Below the pieces are notes generated by a model. It had not been told where the DNA came from, searched no databases, and worked only from the letters and a program-made list of their open reading frames with translations. The position numbers and the translations under genes are program-made. Of a stretch of 64,000 nt of DNA, positions 1,606 to 34,268 are shown piece after piece. Source of the stretch: Nocardiopsis kunsanensis DSM 44524 (GTDB taxonomy: Bacteria > Actinomycetota > Actinomycetes > Streptosporangiales > Streptosporangiaceae); the NCBI RefSeq assembly GCF_000340965.1, contig NZ_ANAY01000011.1, forward strand, positions 1 to 64,000. The letters are read 5' to 3'. Position 1 is the first letter of the stretch; every line of letters begins with the position of its first letter.

Positions 1606-1752
1606 CTGGGTGATGCCGGGGCTCTCGCTCCGTGCACTTCAACCATAGCAAAGTTGAGAGGGTGCCCGAACCATGTTTTCCGCCGAGGGCACTCCGTGGC
1701 TAGTGTTCGGGTGAAAGCAGGGCACAAGGTGCGGATGGACGGGAGTGCACAG

Positions 1753-3075
1753 ATGGCTGAACCCGACACAGACCTGAGCGCGGCGGAAGCCGAGGTCACA
1801 GACCTTTGCAGGGAGCTCATCCAGATCGACACCTCCAACTACGGCGACCATTCGGGTCCGGGTGAACGCAAGGCCGCGGAGTACGTCGCGGGCCGGCTCG
1901 ACGAGGTCGGTGTGGAGTCGCAGATCTACGAGAGCCACCCGGGGCGCAGCAACCTCGTGGCACGCATCGCGGGCGAGGACTCCAGCCGCCCGCCGTTGTT
2001 GATCCAGGGCCACCTCGACGTGGTCCCGGCGGCCGCCGAGGACTGGACGCACCACCCCTTCGCGGGCGAGATCGCCGACGGATGCGTGTGGGGCCGTGGC
2101 GCGGTCGACATGAAGAACATGAACGCGATGGTCCTGGCGATGATGCGCCAGCGCCTGCGCGAGGGACGCCGTCCGCCGCGCGACGTCGTGCTCGCGTTCG
2201 TGGCCGACGAGGAGGCCGGCGGTACGTGGGGCGCCCAGTACCTGGTCAACGAACACCCGGAGCTGTTCGCCGACTGCGACTCGGCCATCAGCGAGGTCGG
2301 CGGTTTCTCGGTCACGATGGAGGAGAACCGCCGCCTGTACCTGGTGGAGACCGCCGAGAAGGGCATCGCGTGGATGAAGCTCACCGCGCGCGGCACGGCG
2401 GGCCACGGCTCGATGACCAACCGGGACAACGCGGTGACCGAGCTGGCCGCTGCGGTCGCGCGTCTGGGCGAGTACGAGTTCCCGGTGTACCTGACGCCGA
2501 CGGTGCGCACGTTCCTGGAGGAGGTGTGCGAGGAGTTCGGCATCCCCTTCGACGAGCGCGACGTCGAGGGCACGGTGGCGCGCTTGGGCCCGATCGCGAA
2601 GATGATCGGTGCGACCCTGCGCAACACGGTCAACCCGACGGTGCTGGGCGGCGGTTACAAGGCCAACGTCATCCCGGGTGAGGCGACCGCGCAGGTGGAC
2701 GGCCGGTTCCTGCCGGGCACCGAGGAGCAGTACTTCGCCAAGATCGACGAGCTGCTCGGCCCGAAGGTGAGCCGCGAGTTCATCCAGCACCTGCCGTCGG
2801 TGGAGACCTCCTTCGACGGCGGCCTGGTCAACGCGATGTCGGAATCGTTGCTGGCGGAGGACCCGGGTGCCAAGGCCGTGCCCTACTGCCTGTCGGGCGG
2901 TACCGACTCCAAGAGCTTCCAGCGCCTGGGGATCCGCAACTACGGCTTCTCCCCGTTGAAGCTCCCCCCGGAGCTCGACTTCGCCGGAATGTTCCACGGG
3001 GTGGACGAACGGGTGCCCGTGGACGGCCTCCAGTTCGGTGTGCGGGTACTCGACCGATTCGTCAGCATGAGCTGA
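1753..3075 (+). CDS. M20 family metallopeptidase (ArgE/DapE type)
   Basis: A 440-aa cytosolic zinc amidohydrolase of the M20 family, which removes acyl groups or cleaves small peptides. Visible motifs in order are the metal-site HLDVVPA, the bridging aspartate region WGRGAVDMK, the catalytic glutamates DEEAGG, and a late C-terminal histidine region (FHGVDERV). A dimerisation insert lies in between. ATG 1753 is preferred because GGGAG lies seven bases upstream; an open frame continues upstream to 1654 without a better site. It stands alone, followed by a hairpin. The exact substrate cannot be told: succinyl-diaminopimelate, acetylornithine and dipeptides are all handled by relatives. 'Peptidase M20' is the safe label. 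Confidence 0.93.
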   Translation: MAEPDTDLSAAEAEVTDLCRELIQIDTSNYGDHSGPGERKAAEYVAGRLDEVGVESQIYESHPGRSNLVARIAGEDSSRPPLLIQGHLDVVPAAAEDWTHHPFAGEIADGCVWGRGAVDMKNMNAMVLAMMRQRLREGRRPPRDVVLAFVADEEAGGTWGAQYLVNEHPELFADCDSAISEVGGFSVTMEENRRLYLVETAEKGIAWMKLTARGTAGHGSMTNRDNAVTELAAAVARLGEYEFPVYLTPTVRTFLEEVCEEFGIPFDERDVEGTVARLGPIAKMIGATLRNTVNPTVLGGGYKANVIPGEATAQVDGRFLPGTEEQYFAKIDELLGPKVSREFIQHLPSVETSFDGGLVNAMSESLLAEDPGAKAVPYCLSGGTDSKSFQRLGIRNYGFSPLKLPPELDFAGMFHGVDERVPVDGLQFGVRVLDRFVSMS

Positions 3076-3114
3076 TCTGTCCGTCTCGGGAGAACTTGTC
3101 CCGGGACGCCCTCC

Positions 3115-3143
3115 GGCCGGGCCGAAATCTTCTCGGTCCGGCC
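3115..3143 (+). terminator. hairpin after the M20 peptidase
   Basis: Arms 3115-3125 and 3133-3143 are complementary over 11 bases with one G-U pair and a 7-base loop. There is no T-run, as usual in high-GC actinobacteria. It sits 40 bases after the stop codon. Confidence 0.5.
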
Positions 3144-3314
3144 TGGCGGACCGGTGTTCAGTCACGGAACGTGATGCTATGGTTGCGTCGAGTTCAAGGG
3201 GTTGGAGTCCCTCGGCGCCACCGGTCTCAGGTGTGCGCGGACGGCCCGGCCCCGCCGCGCGGCCGTGGTGATGCCGACGCGCGGGACCGTCCAGCAGCGA
3301 GGAAAGGGGCATCG

Positions 3315-4370
3315 ATGGTGCTCGTGGGTCGGGGGTGGCCGGTTCTGACCGGACGCGCTGACCACGGCTCCAACGCCCTGGTCCGTCTGCTGCTCCTGTC
3401 CGGCATCGTCGCCGTCGCGTGGCTGGCCGGGGGGTTCGGTGTCGCCCACAGTGACACCGCCCCCGAGTCCGAGGGGCTCGTGGACAACGTCCGGGAGCTC
3501 GGGGAGAACACCGAGCAGGCCGGCCAGGCGGCCGGCGACGAGGTCCGGGACTCCCGGCTCTCCGACACCGCCGCCCGTGCTACCGAAACCACCGGTCGGG
3601 TCACCGGGGAGACCGCCTCCCGTGCCGTCTCCCTGCCCGCGGACACTCTGGAGGGCACCGGCGCCGCCGAGTCCCTCGAGGGTGCTGCGGACGTGACCGG
3701 TTCCCTTGGCGAGTCCGGTGTCTCCGGAGCCCTCGAAGGGGCCGGCGAACAGCCCGGCCGGGTGGTCGACGAGACCTCCAGGGCCGTCGGCGACACCGCC
3801 CGCGGTGCGGGCGAGCTGGTCACCGGCCTGGCCCGTACCGGCGAGGACGTCGTGGAGTCCACCGACGGCTCCCTGCGCGGCGGGACCACTCTGGTCGACA
3901 GTGTCACCGAGGGGCTGACCGAGTCGGCCCGCTCCGTCGGTGTGCCCGTCGACGGCACCGCCGCAGACGAGACACGCGAGACCGACGACGGCGAACTCTC
4001 CACGGAGCCCGAAGGGGACGGGCGCGGCGACGGCCGGGAGGAAGAGACCTCCGCGTCTGCGGACGCCGCACAGGCCCTCGCCCAGACGGAGGACCCCGCG
4101 TGGCGGGCAGCGGCCGAGGAGGCCGCCCACCACGTGTCCTCCGATGATGGGGCGGAGCGTATCCACCTCATCGCCGGTGGCGGCCAGTACTCGGTGGGAA
4201 CGGACGCCACGGGCGCTTCCTCGCCGACCTTCCCCGCACCCGGTGCTGCCGGGTTCCTCACCGCCCGGGCCGGTCACACGGCTCCCCGGGCCCAGCGGGT
4301 CGTTCTGCCCGGGGACCCCACTGTGGTGGTCCGCGACGCTGCCGACGACCCGTCGTACACCCCTGACTAG
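3315..4370 (+). CDS. secreted low-complexity helical protein next to chaplins
   Basis: A 351-aa protein of unknown function. ATG 3315 follows GAGGAAAGGGG. The N-terminus has a hydrophobic segment (about residues 22-42) ending in a plausible signal-peptidase region before HSDTAPESE, so export is likely. Residues 50-210 are rich in Ala, Gly, Thr, Ser, Glu and Val with repeated patterns such as TARATETTGRVT and ETASRAV, suggesting an amphipathic, apolipoprotein-like helix. Residues 210-250 are acidic linker. The C-terminus (about 275-351) is less repetitive and ends LPGDPTVVVRDAADDPSYTPD-like. No enzyme motif is seen. It lies 166 bases upstream of a sortase-anchored chaplin on the same strand, so a role in the hyphal or spore surface is a reasonable guess only. 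Confidence 0.75.
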   Translation: MVLVGRGWPVLTGRADHGSNALVRLLLLSGIVAVAWLAGGFGVAHSDTAPESEGLVDNVRELGENTEQAGQAAGDEVRDSRLSDTAARATETTGRVTGETASRAVSLPADTLEGTGAAESLEGAADVTGSLGESGVSGALEGAGEQPGRVVDETSRAVGDTARGAGELVTGLARTGEDVVESTDGSLRGGTTLVDSVTEGLTESARSVGVPVDGTAADETRETDDGELSTEPEGDGRGDGREEETSASADAAQALAQTEDPAWRAAAEEAAHHVSSDDGAERIHLIAGGGQYSVGTDATGASSPTFPAPGAAGFLTARAGHTAPRAQRVVLPGDPTVVVRDAADDPSYTPD

Positions 4371-4536: not shown

Positions 4537-5106
4537 ATGACCAATGAAACCCACGCCCGGATCGCCGCCCTGGTGGCTGCCGGCTTCCTGATGACCTCCG
4601 GGGGCGCCGCCTTCGCCGATACCGCCACCAGCGGGAACGGATCGATCGGTGGCGGCAACCAGCTGGGCGCCGACGTCGACGCGCCGATCAACCTCTGCGG
4701 CAATGCCATCGGCCTGCTCGGTGTGGCCGGCGCCCAGTGCACCGACTCCGGGGCCTCCGTCGAGGAGCCGAAGGTCCCCGAGCACCCGGATGAGCCCGAG
4801 GAGCCGAAGGACCCCGAGGAGCCCGGAAACCCGGGTGAGCCGAAGGACCCCGAGGAGCCCGGGGGCCCGGGTGAGCCCGAGCACCCGGATGAGCCGGGGT
4901 CGCAGACGCCCGACGACCAGGGTGAGGAGCCGGGCCACGTCCCCGACGAGATCTCCGCGCCGAGTGAGTCCTCCCCGGTGGAGGAGGACCTGGCAGTGAC
5001 CGGAACCGAGCGCGGCCCCCTGGTCGGCCTGATCGCCGCCGCCGTGGGTGCGCTGGCCGTCGGCGCCGGCCTGCTCTTCGGTCTGCGCCGTCGCGCGGGA
5101 GCCTGA
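4537..5106 (+). CDS. sortase-anchored long chaplin with a single chaplin domain
   Basis: A 189-aa cell-wall-linked chaplin. Chaplins form amyloid-like hydrophobic layers on aerial hyphae and spores. Residues 1-27 are a signal peptide (AFA|DTA). One chaplin domain follows (about 28-72) with the ATSGNGS start and the Cys54...Cys68 pair at the canonical 13-residue spacing. Residues about 75-135 are a Pro/Glu/Asp stalk made of EPKDPEEPG-like repeats. The C-terminus has sorting motif LAVTG (152-156), a transmembrane helix and RRRAGA, matching class E sortase substrates. ATG 4537 has AAGGA upstream. Streptomyces long chaplins usually carry two chaplin domains; here only one is present. No sortase gene lies in this window. 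Confidence 0.9.
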   Translation: MTNETHARIAALVAAGFLMTSGGAAFADTATSGNGSIGGGNQLGADVDAPINLCGNAIGLLGVAGAQCTDSGASVEEPKVPEHPDEPEEPKDPEEPGNPGEPKDPEEPGGPGEPEHPDEPGSQTPDDQGEEPGHVPDEISAPSESSPVEEDLAVTGTERGPLVGLIAAAVGALAVGAGLLFGLRRRAGA

Positions 5107-5140: not shown

Positions 5141-5447
5141 GGTTGACGCGAGTCCCGCAGCACGGGCCGGAGGCCATGTTTGCGGGGTTCACGTCAGCCA
5201 CCGTCCCGACCAGGGGCGGGGTTGATCGGACAGGGCGTGCGCACCCGGTCCCACATCCAGTGGACACCGGTGGCGGCGCGTCCCACGACCCGGCAGACAC
5301 GCACCGTCCAGGTGCGCGGCCGACCGGATGTTCCCCGGTCGGACCGGGGGCGCCGTCCCCAACCAGGGGAGAGGCGGCCCGGGTCCGGCGGCACAACCTT
5401 CTCAGTCATCAGACGGACGTTTCCGAAATCTGGAAAGGACGTTCCAC

Positions 5448-6632
5448 ATGCGTCAGTGGGCCAGTACATCCGCCAAGTCGCTGCTCCTCGCGGCGGGCTT
5501 CGTCGCCCTGGGCAGCGGGGTCGCCTTCGCCGACAGCGGCGCTGCCACCTCCGGCAACGGGTCGGCGATCGGCGGGAACCAGATCGTGGCCAACGCCGAC
5601 GTTCCGGTGAACATCGCCGGCAACGCGGTCAGTGCCCTGGGCGTCTCCGGGGCCAACGCCACGGAGACCGAGGCCGAGGTCGAGGACCACGGTGACAACG
5701 ACGTGCGCTCCTCCGGCAACGGTTCGCTGCTGGGCGGGAACCAGGCCGTGATCGACGGTGACGTTCCGGTGAACATCGACGGCAACGCGGTCGGCGTGCT
5801 GGGCGTTGCGGGGGCCAACGCCACGGACGCCGAGGCCGAGGTCGAGCACCAGTCCGCGCCGAGCGAGGTCACGGCCACCGACGTGCTCGGCGAGGCCGCA
5901 GAGAACGCACAGCTCCTGCCGGCCGCGGACACCTCCGGGGTGGACGCCGGCGTGCTGCGCCAGTCGGCCCCCGGGGGACACGGCCACGACTCCGTCGCCA
6001 CCTCCGGCAACGGTTCGCTGCTGGGCGGGAACCAGGCCGTGATCGACGGTGACGTTCCGGTGAACATCGCCGGCAACGCGGTCGGCGTGCTGGGCGTTGC
6101 GGGGGCCAACGCCACGGACGCCGAGGCCGAGGTCGAGCACCACCACCAGGACGTGCGCTCCTCCGGCAACGGTTCGCTGCTGGGCGGCAACCAGCTGGTG
6201 GGCGACCTGGACGTCCCGGTCAACGTCACCGGTAACGGGATCGGCGTGCTGGGCGTTGCGGGGGCCAACGCCACGGACGCCGAGGCCGAGGTCGAGCACC
6301 AGAGCGCGTCCGAGCAGCAGACGGCGCTGGAGAGCCTGCCGGTCGTCGAGCAGTTGCCTGAGGTCCCGGTCTCCGAGCAGCTGCCCGTGGCGTACGACCT
6401 GCAGGAGACCGAGGCCCAGAGCGCGGAGGAGGCTCCGGCCGAGAACGTCGTCGCGCAGGAGGCTCCGGTGGACCCGGCCCCCGAGGCGCCGGCCGAGGAG
6501 TCCCCGGCCCCGGCGGCCCCTGCGGAAGAGGCCCCCTCCGACGACTCCACGGGGCTGCTGCCCGAGGCATCCGAGGGCGGCCTGGGCAGCCCCGTCGACG
6601 ACGTGCTGGGCGCTGTGGGCCTGGGTCTGTGA
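5448..6632 (+). CDS. four-repeat, cysteine-less chaplin-like secreted protein
   Basis: A 394-aa exported protein. ATG 5448 follows GGAAAGG. Residues 1-28 form a signal peptide (AFA|DSG). Four chaplin-type repeats follow at about 30-77, 86-134, 184-232 and 236-286, each with the pattern SGNGS..GGNQ..DVPVNI.GN.V..LGV.GANAT. The two positions that are Cys in short chaplins are Ile/Val and Ala/Asn here, so no disulfide can form. Linkers are acidic and His-containing (DHGDND, GGHGHD, EHHHQD). The C-terminal 110 residues are Glu/Pro/Ala-rich, and the protein ends DDVLGAVGLGL with no sortase signal or anchor. It is probably a free, self-assembling surface polymer. Family assignment is strong; function is inferred from chaplins. 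Confidence 0.88.
   Translation: MRQWASTSAKSLLLAAGFVALGSGVAFADSGAATSGNGSAIGGNQIVANADVPVNIAGNAVSALGVSGANATETEAEVEDHGDNDVRSSGNGSLLGGNQAVIDGDVPVNIDGNAVGVLGVAGANATDAEAEVEHQSAPSEVTATDVLGEAAENAQLLPAADTSGVDAGVLRQSAPGGHGHDSVATSGNGSLLGGNQAVIDGDVPVNIAGNAVGVLGVAGANATDAEAEVEHHHQDVRSSGNGSLLGGNQLVGDLDVPVNVTGNGIGVLGVAGANATDAEAEVEHQSASEQQTALESLPVVEQLPEVPVSEQLPVAYDLQETEAQSAEEAPAENVVAQEAPVDPAPEAPAEESPAPAAPAEEAPSDDSTGLLPEASEGGLGSPVDDVLGAVGLGL
5704..6303 (+). repeat. near-identical internal DNA repeats in the chaplin gene
   Basis: Three copies, about 5704-5850, 5998-6142 and 6155-6303, encode repeats 2-4. Copies 2 and 3 are almost identical for about 140 bases (GAC versus GCC in the GN-preceding codon is the evident change). 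Copy 4 matches them exactly only in its second half. A fourth, more diverged copy lies at about 5533-5685. Confidence 0.85.
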
Positions 6633-10313: not shown

Positions 10314-12464
10314 GTGAGCGCTATGAGCAGATCTGCACCCTTGGGAGCGCCGTCCGAGGCGCGCAACGTCCTGGCGATCACATCCTTCAGAAGGTTGTGG
10401 ATCTCGCTTTCCTTGTCCAGCCTGGGTGACTGGCTGAGCCTGCTGGCGCTGATGTCGCTCGCGGTGGTCTTCACCGCCGACGCCGCGCCCCTGGCCGGCC
10501 ACCTGGCCGTGGCCGCGGTCGCGGCGATCAAGCTCGCACCGTCCGTCCTGTTCAGCCCGCTGGTGGGTGCGCTGGCCGACAGACTCGACCGCCGCTGGAC
10601 CATGGTCGGCGCCGACGTCGTGCGCGGGCTGTTCTACGTGTCCATCCCGGTCGTGGGGCTGCTCTGGTCCGGTTTCGCACTGCAGTGGCTGTTCATCGCG
10701 AGCCTGCTCGCCGAGGTCGTCGCCCTGCTGTGGACCCCTGCCAAGGACGCCACCGTCCCCAGTCTCGTGCCGCGCCGCCAGCTCGCCGAGGCCAACCGCC
10801 TCACACTGCTGGCCTCCTACATCACCGCGCCCCTGGCCGCGCTGCTCTTCGCCGCCCTGGCCTCGTTCAACAACGTCCTCGGCGCGTTCGTGCCCTCGCT
10901 GGCCAACCCCGAGGCCGACATCGCGCTGTACCTCAACGGCCTCACGTTCTTCACCGCGGCGATCGTCGTGGGGACCCTGCCGATCCCCAAACACAACCCC
11001 GGTGTCTCGGCGGCGAGCCCCACCCGCGACGGCGCCGTCCTGCGCTCGGTCGTGAGCGGCCCCCGCCACACCGGCGGAACGGCCCTGGGCCGCGGGCTCG
11101 TCATCGGCCTGCTGACCGCGGTGGCCGCAGGTGCGTCCGTCGTCGGTGTGGGCCGCGCGCACGTGGAGGCGCTGGGGGCCGGTAACGGCGGTTTCGGTGT
11201 GCTCTTCGCCGCGGTCTTCGGCGGTGCCGCGCTGGGTATGGTCGCGGGTCCGCGCCTGCTCAAGAAGTTCAGCCGGCGGCGCCTGTTCGGTCTCGTGCTC
11301 CTCCTCGCATCGATCGCGCTGCTCTTCACCGGTCCGGTCTGGGACATGGTGCTCTCGGCCGTGCTCGTGCTGGTCCTCGGGTTCGCTTCCGGTGTGGCAG
11401 CCGGTACCGGTCTGCGCCTGCTCGACGTCGCCGCGTCCGCCACCGCCGGCACCGTCTCGGAGGAGTCGGCCCACCGTGAGCGTGCGTTCTCCTTCGTGCA
11501 CGGGGCCGCCCGCCTGACCTTCGTGGCCGTGGCCGTACTCACCCCCGTGGTCGCCGGACTGGCCGGTGACCACACCCTGCCTCTCGGCGGCGAGCTCGAG
11601 TACCAGCTCTGGGGCACGGGCATCGTGCTCATGGCGGTCGGCCTGGTCGCGGTCGTGCTCAGCGCCGTCGCCCACCACCTGGTCAACCGGGAGGACCCCG
11701 AGGCCGGCCCCGGTCTGCTGCCGGAGCTCTTCGCCGCGCTGCGCGGGGTCGACCCCAACGCAGGGGAAGGCGACGGGGAGGTGCGCACCCCCGGCGCGTT
11801 CGTGGTCATCGAGGGCGGTGAGGGGGCCGGGAAGTCCACCCAGGTCCGCGATCTCACCGTGTGGCTGCGGGAGCAGGGGTTCGAGGTCGTCGGTACCCGC
11901 CAGCCCGGCGCCACCAAGCTCGGCATGCGCCTGCGCGGCATCCTGCTGGACCGGGAGAACTCCCACATCACCCCGCGGGCCGAGGCGATGCTCTATGCCG
12001 CCGACAAGGCCGACCACGTGGAGCAGGAGATCCTGCCCGCGCTCCGTCGCGGCGCCGTCGTCATCAGCGACCGCTACATCGACTCCACGCTCGCCTACCA
12101 GGGGGCCGGGCGCGAGTTGGAGACCGAGGAGCTGCGCGAGATCAACCGCTGGGCCACACAGAACCTCGTCCCCGACCTCACGGTGCTGCTGGACGTGCGC
12201 CCGGAGGACGGCCTCGGCCGCCTGGGCGGCCCCGCCGACCGCATCGAGTCGGAGTCGACGAACTTCCACGAGCGGGTGCGGCGCGAGTTCCGGTCCCTGG
12301 CCGAAGCCGAGCCCGACCGCTACCTGGTCGTGGACGCGAGCGAGCCGTTGGAGAAGGTCACCCGCCGGATCCAGAAGCGGGTGCGCAGCCTGCTGCCCGA
12401 CCCGGTACCGAGCAGCTCCGAAGCGGTGACCGGCATGATCCCGATCGTCAATGACGAGGACTGA
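10314..12464 (+). CDS. tmk: MFS-type membrane protein fused to thymidylate kinase
   Basis: A 716-aa fusion. Residues about 1-465 are a major-facilitator-type membrane domain (about 10-12 helices, opening with FRRLWISLSLSSLGDW). Residues about 493-705 are a complete dTMP kinase, which makes dTDP from dTMP: P-loop GGEGAGKST (501-509), RQPGATKLG, the DRYIDSTLAYQG dTMP-binding motif, and a C-terminal helix. The lid region contains PADRIE. Membrane-fused Tmk is known from other actinobacteria; whether the transporter half moves a substrate is unknown. The start is GTG 10314 or ATG 10323; neither has a strong ribosome site. A strong terminator follows. holB lies 0.9 kb downstream, the usual tmk neighbour. 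Confidence 0.93.
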   Translation: MSAMSRSAPLGAPSEARNVLAITSFRRLWISLSLSSLGDWLSLLALMSLAVVFTADAAPLAGHLAVAAVAAIKLAPSVLFSPLVGALADRLDRRWTMVGADVVRGLFYVSIPVVGLLWSGFALQWLFIASLLAEVVALLWTPAKDATVPSLVPRRQLAEANRLTLLASYITAPLAALLFAALASFNNVLGAFVPSLANPEADIALYLNGLTFFTAAIVVGTLPIPKHNPGVSAASPTRDGAVLRSVVSGPRHTGGTALGRGLVIGLLTAVAAGASVVGVGRAHVEALGAGNGGFGVLFAAVFGGAALGMVAGPRLLKKFSRRRLFGLVLLLASIALLFTGPVWDMVLSAVLVLVLGFASGVAAGTGLRLLDVAASATAGTVSEESAHRERAFSFVHGAARLTFVAVAVLTPVVAGLAGDHTLPLGGELEYQLWGTGIVLMAVGLVAVVLSAVAHHLVNREDPEAGPGLLPELFAALRGVDPNAGEGDGEVRTPGAFVVIEGGEGAGKSTQVRDLTVWLREQGFEVVGTRQPGATKLGMRLRGILLDRENSHITPRAEAMLYAADKADHVEQEILPALRRGAVVISDRYIDSTLAYQGAGRELETEELREINRWATQNLVPDLTVLLDVRPEDGLGRLGGPADRIESESTNFHERVRREFRSLAEAEPDRYLVVDASEPLEKVTRRIQKRVRSLLPDPVPSSSEAVTGMIPIVNDED

Positions 12465-33171: not shown

Positions 33172-33208
33172 ATGTGGCTCAATAGTCTCTGAACACGGGG
33201 AGTGTTCA
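33172..33208 (+). promoter_or_regulatory. candidate promoter and operator of the short chaplin
   Basis: TAGTCT at 33183-33188 is a likely -10 box. It is directly followed by a perfect dyad, TGAACAC-N5-GTGTTCA (33190-33208), that would cover the transcription start. The left part repeats the module at 32881. A leader of about 75 bases follows, up to ATG 33274. Confidence 0.5.
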
Positions 33209-33273
33209 CAGTCATGCAAATCGTCGACTTCCGGATGATTGGTTCCCTCGAGGGCCGGTCCGTAGGAGAAAAC

Positions 33274-33516
33274 ATGCTGAAGAAGGCTTTCGCCGCCAGT
33301 GCCATCGTTGCCGCCGCCGGCGGTGTGCTGTTCACCGGTGGCCCTGCCATGGCCGCCGATGACGTCGCGACCTCCGGCAACGGCGGTGTCCTCTCCGGCA
33401 ACCAGCTCGTGGCCGACCTGGACGTGCCGGTCAACGTCTGCGGCAACTCGGTCGCGATCCTGGGCGTCGCCGGCGCCAACTGCGTCGACTCCGGCTCCAC
33501 CGTCAAGGACTGGTAA
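33274..33516 (+). CDS. short chaplin
   Basis: An 80-aa secreted chaplin. Signal peptide 1-27 (AMA|ADD); mature part 53 residues with ATSGNGG, GNQLVADLDVPVNVCGN, Cys56 and Cys70 (13 apart, forming a disulfide in relatives) and LGVAGANC. It matches Streptomyces short chaplins ChpD-H in size and pattern. They assemble into amyloid fibrils at the air-water interface and enable aerial growth. ATG 33274 follows AGGAGAAA. It is monocistronic with a terminator. Confidence 0.95.
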   Translation: MLKKAFAASAIVAAAGGVLFTGGPAMAADDVATSGNGGVLSGNQLVADLDVPVNVCGNSVAILGVAGANCVDSGSTVKDW

Positions 33517-34025: not shown

Positions 34026-34268
34026 GTGCTGAAGAAGACACTCGCCACCGGTGCCGTGGCCCTGGCCTCCGCCGGAATCCTCCTCACCGCCGCACCGGCC
34101 GCAGCTCACTCCGGAGCCTGGACGCACAGCCACGGTTCCGACGTGAGCGGCAACCTCTCCTACATCAACGGGGTGGAGAACGAGAACGAGGGCTGCGGCA
34201 ACGCCAACGCCGTGCTCGGCAAGACCCAGGCCTCGTGCTTCAACTCGGGTGTGATCATCCAGAACTGA
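34026..34268 (+). CDS. divergent, histidine-containing short chaplin
   Basis: An 80-aa secreted protein with the same start (MLKK) and size as the chaplin 500 bases upstream. Signal peptide 1-27 (AAA|HSG). The mature part begins with a His-rich run (HSGAWTHSHG). It keeps DVSGN and the CGN...LG...C frame with Cys57 and Cys71 at the chaplin spacing, but otherwise differs (ENENEGCGNANAVLGKTQ). GTG 34026 follows AAGGAGAAC. It is either a diverged chaplin or a related surface peptide. Confidence 0.8.
   Translation: MLKKTLATGAVALASAGILLTAAPAAAHSGAWTHSHGSDVSGNLSYINGVENENEGCGNANAVLGKTQASCFNSGVIIQN

Follow-up and report, generated by a model that had tools for sequence, protein, structure and literature searches.

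Gene organization around the multi-unit chaplin gene

The chaplin unit is the building block from which filamentous soil bacteria make their water-repellent coat. The window analysed here, a 64 000-nucleotide stretch of Nocardiopsis kunsanensis DSM 44524, carries two adjoining genes with such units upstream of topA. The features were located as follows.

1654..3075, + strand: M20 peptidase, conserved neighbour
3096..4370, + strand: conserved ORF (orf3096), perhaps with a secreted product; the true start is probably further in
4537..5106, + strand: adjoining chaplin with one Cys unit, an acidic Pro-rich stalk, an LAVTG sortase-type signal and a membrane segment (PF03777, 25 bits)
5432..5439, + strand: likely ribosome-binding site GGAAAGGA, purine-rich, 8 nt before the ATG at 5448 (read from the sequence)
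5448..6632, + strand: gene for a four-unit, Cys-free chaplin of 394 aa with no recognisable anchor (translation; PF03777, 30.3 bits; orthologues)
5448..5531, + strand: signal-peptide-like N-terminus, aa 1-28, with the end AFA/D (by reading; conserved in the alignment)
5547..5663, + strand: chaplin unit 1, aa 34-72, Cys sites Ala and Ala
5709..5825, + strand: chaplin unit 2, aa 88-126, Cys sites Asp and Ala
5826..5999, + strand: long middle linker, aa 127-184, with a recurring EHQSAP...DTSGVDAGVLRQSAP segment (alignment)
6000..6116, + strand: chaplin unit 3, aa 185-223, Cys sites Ala and Ala
6159..6275, + strand: chaplin unit 4, aa 238-276, Cys sites Thr and Ala
6276..6629, + strand: acidic Glu/Pro-rich tail, aa 277-394, with the end PVDDVLGAVGLGL, without sortase motif or membrane segment
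7258..10083, + strand: topA, DNA topoisomerase I, conserved neighbour
10314..12464, + strand: tmk, a transporter-like part joined to thymidylate kinase, conserved neighbour

The 5448-6632 reading frame (+) has 394 codons and no internal stops, and its translation contains no Cys. The start at 5448 is supported by the likely ribosome-binding site and by an N-terminus shared with relatives. By reading, this N-terminus, which is conserved among the aligned relatives, has a basic start and a hydrophobic core before the AFA/D end, and the protein is likely to be secreted. The dN/dS values against orthologues were 0.25-0.60 and below 1 in all seven pairs, although these values are approximate given the repeats and indels in the alignments. 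Thus, the architecture encoded by the reading frame is more than chance. Repeats and low complexity make such ORFs suspect, and the gene might be imagined to be decaying or mis-called, with its Cys lost by drift; the dN/dS values, together with the wide occurrence, the paired Cys loss and the fixed neighbourhood described below, make this extremely improbable. A scan for promoters and terminators found none, such a scan being of little use for a genome of this kind. A plasmid origin was discarded, as tblastn gave zero matches in the plasmid collection.

The order M20 peptidase, orf3096, multi-unit gene, topA and tmk was found at 15 of 16 loci, drawn from 16 of the 40 genomes of the genus, the sixteenth locus (L055) being that around a paralogue. 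The product of orf3096, which lies between the M20 peptidase and the chaplin pair, had no family match, and its identity across the 15 loci was 38-87%. The tmk reading frame combines a major-facilitator-like part (aa 28-380) with thymidylate kinase (aa 499-686; PF02223, 153 bits), and this joined ORF is present whole or partly in the 15 genus loci. Elsewhere in the window, a serine recombinase gene (85-1515, +) lies 4 bases from a tRNA-Leu(gag) gene (1520-1605, -), a pair that may mark an element integrated at the tRNA.

The start of the adjoining chaplin at 4537..5106 was chosen by reading the sequence. A search of the whole genome with PF03777 recovered this gene, a short chaplin with Cys (33202-33516) and, on contig C24, a chaplin of four units. 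It missed the 5448-6632 gene, which was recovered by a search with the protein itself. The same genome has two sortase genes. Next to the short Cys chaplin is an 80-aa ORF (34026-34268, +) that by reading is probably secreted and has a chaplin-like CGN...C spacing; it had no Pfam match at E <= 0.1 and is perhaps a diverged chaplin.

Four chaplin units without cysteine

From the sequence alone the protein had been described as a chaplin of four units in which every disulfide Cys is replaced, and the profile search bears this out. PF03777 matched the 394-aa protein with 30.3 bits (E 3.8e-7) against a cut-off of 21, and three stretches each pass separately. All four units are 39 residues long. 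None of the eight Cys-equivalent sites holds Cys, the first being Ala, Asp, Ala and Thr in units 1-4 and the second Ala in each. The units are hydrophobic (GRAVY 0.43), lack His, Lys and Arg altogether, and sit in four direct DNA repeats of 171 nt with 78%, 92% and 84% similarity to the reference copy. Every unit contains three GN pairs with spacings of 7 and 15, which do not reproduce the Streptomyces coelicolor form, described in the accessible part of its source as three GN motifs per unit, 12-13 apart (PMC13251363). The spacing of 7 and 15 is also that of the adjoining Cys chaplin and is thus a trait of the lineage, not an effect of Cys loss.

Median identity to the window protein across 35 relatives was 0.73 for the units and 0.56 for both the linkers and the tail, and the hydrophobic GN-rich unit core is the best conserved part of the protein. 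A PF03928 (HbpS-like) match over unit 3 was set aside, its 19.5 bits being below the cut-off of 25; it may lie behind database names such as 'ligand-binding sensor protein' for relatives. AlphaFold2 gave a mean pLDDT of 38.9 for the whole protein (36 sequences) and 32.8 for a unit pair (74 sequences), and because both models are without confidence, no model of unit stacking is supported or refuted. A PDB sequence search with the unit pair gave no match.

The linkers and tail also agree with the sequence-only reading, which had the linkers acidic and containing His, and the tail rich in Glu and Pro without a wall anchor. The linkers total 92 residues, with 24 Asp/Glu and 7 His, and the 118-residue tail has 28 Asp/Glu. 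The last 60 residues contain no sortase-type motif, and there is no C-terminal membrane segment, the top hydropathy being 0.82 compared with 2.38 in the adjoining chaplin. For the mature protein, the computed charge at pH 7 is -56 and the pI is 4.05. Its overall His content is low (8 of 366 residues, 2.2%), with seven of the eight His in the linkers.

Comparison with known chaplins

The statements on published chaplins in this section follow the portions of the cited papers that were available. The S. coelicolor chaplins carry Cys, ChpE excepted, and Cys replacement in ChpH harms development (PMC5618241; PMC7766987). Cys loss can thus be costly, since Cys-less ChpH fails in vivo (PMC5618241; PMC3079736). 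Reduced chaplins still form fibrils in vitro (PMC3079736; PMC5618249). Disulfide dimers have been proposed as the nuclei of chaplin fibrils, and the absence of Cys from ChpE has been proposed to favour a surface-active monomer (PMC3079736). The dependence of chaplins on a Cys pair, assumed when the gene was first read, is therefore not strict, and since ChpE is without Cys, the pair is not required for membership of the family.

ChpE, a short chaplin, resembles the window protein in having a unit without the Cys pair and no wall anchor. It differs in having one unit rather than four, a pI of about 6.7-6.8 rather than 4.05, and Gly and Val at the Cys sites (PMC5618249) where the window protein has Ala, Asp or Thr and Ala. 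Among the known chaplins, assembly is described at low pH for acidic ChpF (pI 4.2) and at higher pH for ChpE (PMC5618249). The long chaplins ChpA-C share with the window protein the presence of more than one unit per chain, and the C-terminal (second) domain of ChpB is described as Cys-free (PMC13251363), although another source states that all domains except ChpE retain Cys (PMC3079736). ChpA-C differ in having two units, Cys in the other domains and a sortase signal for wall attachment. The window protein thus has neither the C-terminal sortase signal and membrane segment of the long chaplins nor the single unit of the short ones (ChpD-H).

The four-unit chaplin on contig C24 of the same genome (L001:916-1968) likewise has four PF03777 units (139.9 bits), but all eight Cys are present, an LPVTG anchor follows and there is no His. 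Within one genome it forms a mirror image of the Cys-free chaplin.

The architecture is therefore neither that of a short chaplin, with one unit, nor that of a long, anchored one, and it is conserved within the chaplin family. At the first reading, no chaplin of this form was known to have been described. Among the literature matches listed, in which few subscription journals are covered, no paper described the Cys-free, anchorless tandem form; Cys-free chaplin units themselves are already known from ChpE and, in the available part of the source, the second domain of ChpB. Chaplin-like genes have been reported in Nocardiopsis dassonvillei (PMC4255298, in the part available).

Distribution of the family

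At E <= 0.001, a protein search in which 7998 candidates were scored gave 141 relatives, of which 120 are listed. The list is led by Nocardiopsis, with Streptomonospora, Haloactinospora and Murinocardiopsis, while Planotetraspora and others appear lower down. The 69 best-ranked proteins of more than 300 aa (drawn from among P0001 and P0003-P0075) comprise 54 without Cys, 14 with two Cys and one with more.

The survey for orthologues bore out their expected presence in the Nocardiopsaceae. All 40 genomes assigned to the genus in the genome collection gave a match, which alone does not prove a Cys-free protein, and in 37 of the 40 it reached E <= 2e-43. The three weaker genomes, of which two are in many contigs, gave 7e-13, 1e-15 and 2e-17. 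Sampling 120 genomes across the wider family gave a match at E <= 0.001 in 94, other chaplins included. The number of recognised units per protein in the examined loci ranged from 2 to 7. The Cys-free, anchorless tandem chaplin belongs to a family maintained throughout Nocardiopsis and its near relatives and is no one-off.

A Cys-free chaplin was also seen in Phycicoccus avicenniae (Micrococcales; P0115, PF03777 66.2 bits). It has five recognised units, and its hydrophobic C-terminus carries basic residues; this is perhaps an independent loss. Cys-free and Cys units are mixed in one chain in 11 of the listed proteins (P0083, P0094, P0095, P0099, P0105, P0107-P0109, P0113, P0117 and P0119).

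Two states of the chaplin gene next to topA

The Cys pair was kept or lost as one in all 475 recognised units (98 with both Cys, 377 with neither, none with a single Cys). For this count, a Cys was accepted as the second if it lay no more than 20 residues beyond the GN next after the first Cys site, and relatedness was ignored. The 475 units come from 109 of 120 proteins, the unit pattern finding none in the other 11. In those 11, a looser pattern gave 56 matches, of which 22 have both Cys, 34 lack both and none has one; the 34 include at least one match, at the P0119 C-terminus, that is not a unit. A stricter pattern, in which the second Cys was placed too rigidly, gave 458 units, with 364 neither, 73 both, 21 first only and none second only. 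The paired pattern fits selection acting on the entire disulfide.

We compared the multi-unit gene beside topA across 42 Nocardiopsaceae-type loci (the window and L057-L097) and 19 related loci outside that clade (among L098-L121); L104, L109, L110, L113, L119 and L122-L133 were not counted as the slot gene. In 36 of the 42, every recognised unit is Cys-free, whilst in five Cys is confined to the first unit (L065, L066, L067, L081 and L084) and one, from Murinocardiopsis, is mixed (L085). A membrane tail was found in the multi-unit gene at none of the 42, L094 and L095 being cut by the contig end. The 19 loci outside the clade, from Nonomuraea, Planotetraspora, Acrocarpospora, Actinomadura and relatives, likewise encode tandem units, and the gene lies directly upstream of topA in all 19, as in the window. 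These proteins differ in being Cys-rich, with Cys in most units (the first unit is Cys-free in 17 of the 19), and in having a C-terminal membrane segment in 18. An M20 peptidase falls within the stretch at nine of these 19 loci. Planotetraspora protein P0080, which is related to these chaplins but itself not placed, has eight PF03777 stretches and a signal peptide similar to that of the window protein.

A topA tree was built with 57 of the 66 loci examined (the window and L057-L121); of the nine omitted, L104 is a paralogue and the others have no complete topA. The two groups lie on opposite sides with 100% SH-aLRT, the mixed locus L085 grouping with the Nocardiopsaceae type, and the tree requires five changes of Cys state compared with 21 in shuffles. 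The tree does not give the direction of change because its root is the midpoint; by analogy with Streptomyces, we infer that the Cys state is probably ancestral. The idea that the Nocardiopsaceae units were copied from the Cys-free first unit of the Cys-rich proteins was unsupported by profile scores. Once the Cys sites had been masked, the Cys-unit profile fitted 184 of the 187 Nocardiopsaceae units at least equally well. In a depth-balanced repeat (17 sequences per profile), the best profile was that of the first unit for 15 of the 187, the second for 97, the third for 2, the fourth for 71 and the fifth for 2.

The adjoining Cys chaplin was also followed. In the genus loci L053, L054 and L056, the best match to it falls close to or inside the multi-unit gene, and it was therefore counted from the 42-locus set. 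A separate upstream ORF for a Cys-containing chaplin was called at 36 of the 42 loci, with an L[AP]xTG motif in 34 of those 36. Among the six without a call, L069 and L076 sit at contig ends and L085 and L096 show none, whilst at L086 and L095 a Cys chaplin ORF is visible upstream though passed over by the count.

Histidine in the linkers

The placement of His bears on an alternative in which the protein is a metal- or proton-gated polymer, its His/Asp/Glu linkers binding metal or protons to cross-link or release the units and so replacing the disulfide switch. His is segregated outside the units, with 14 His in 6095 unit residues compared with 518 in 8120 other residues of 36 aligned proteins. 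Outside the units, the 45 proteins with fewer than three Cys units have a median His content of 6.1%, compared with 1.7% for the 20 Cys-rich proteins and 0.8% for the 36 adjoining chaplin ORFs that have only Cys units, though as many as five loci other than the slot gene may be counted in the sets of 45 and 20. The lack of His in the four-unit Cys chaplin on contig C24 points the same way. However, the difference between the clades amounts to little more than one evolutionary comparison, and the window protein itself has few His, only four of the eight (positions 81, 134, 180 and 284) being kept in most of the 35 relatives. Cys count and His share show no trade-off within the family (Spearman -0.11, P 0.38, 69 proteins), and some of the highest His counts, 24 to 37 in P0010, P0011, P0020, P0034 and P0035, belong to members that have Cys in unit 1. 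We consider gating of this kind unlikely. The same low probability attaches to a wider formulation, in which this would be a chaplin lineage without disulfides, having His- and acid-rich linkers and proton- or metal-switched assembly, with disulfide and anchoring moved to the neighbour gene.

A model for the Cys-free chaplin

The working that we favour, with confidence slightly better than even, is that the protein is a secreted, soluble subunit of the hydrophobic sheath that does not depend on disulfides and co-assembles with the upstream Cys-containing chaplin, itself predicted to be wall-anchored. What we infer on secretion, assembly, location and partners can be put as follows. A chain without Cys would form no disulfide-linked dimers of the kind proposed to nucleate chaplin fibrils, and would therefore remain in solution and active at surfaces for as long as it is highly charged. 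It would polymerise through its tandem units, four of which on one chain would raise the local concentration and so replace nucleation by dimers, the trigger being neutralisation of the acidic charge or the meeting of an interface. The long acidic linkers would serve as flexible spacers, and the upstream Cys chaplin, put forward as a partner because the two genes adjoin, would supply wall attachment. In favour of the model are the PF03777 match, the closer conservation of the units than of linkers or tail, the dN/dS values, the paired Cys pattern, the constant gene order, the frequent upstream Cys chaplin, the two sortase genes and the literature on ChpE, reduced chaplins and acidic ChpF. Against it speak the retention of some Cys in six of the 42 slot genes, the failure of Cys-less ChpH in vivo, the low-confidence structure models, GN spacings other than those described for S. 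coelicolor and, for co-assembly, the six loci where no upstream Cys chaplin was called.

Two other functions were weighed against the sheath subunit. The protein could be a matrix or adhesion protein, secreted but no longer forming an amyloid sheath, in which the chaplin unit survives as a repeat scaffold, as might be suggested by its strong acidity, the lack of a recognisable anchor, the variable unit number and, according to the part of the source available, the action of chaplins in surface attachment as well (PMC4255298). It is the hydrophobic unit core that remains best conserved, however, and we think this function rather improbable. It could also be a polyprotein, in which the linkers are cut extracellularly to free single Cys-free units that act, like ChpE, as small surfactant chaplins. 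The units are self-contained, one unit corresponding to the chaplin domain of the short chaplins, and the middle linker has its recurring segment. However, no obvious cleavage site was seen on reading, and both the tail and the middle linker show conservation of the kind expected if they are retained, so that processing of this kind seems quite improbable.

Implications for the role of the chaplin disulfide

In the sources as available, the role of the chaplin disulfide is unsettled, being dispensable for fibrils in vitro and needed in ChpH in vivo. The gene next to topA offers a clade-wide natural comparison on this point, between Cys-rich, membrane-tailed chaplins and Cys-free, anchorless ones, and in the Cys-free group a separate adjoining gene bears the Cys and the anchor signal. 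The role of the disulfide could therefore be tested by gene removal and by comparing the natural proteins. Naturally Cys-free tandem units may also suit recombinant surface-active or fibre materials.
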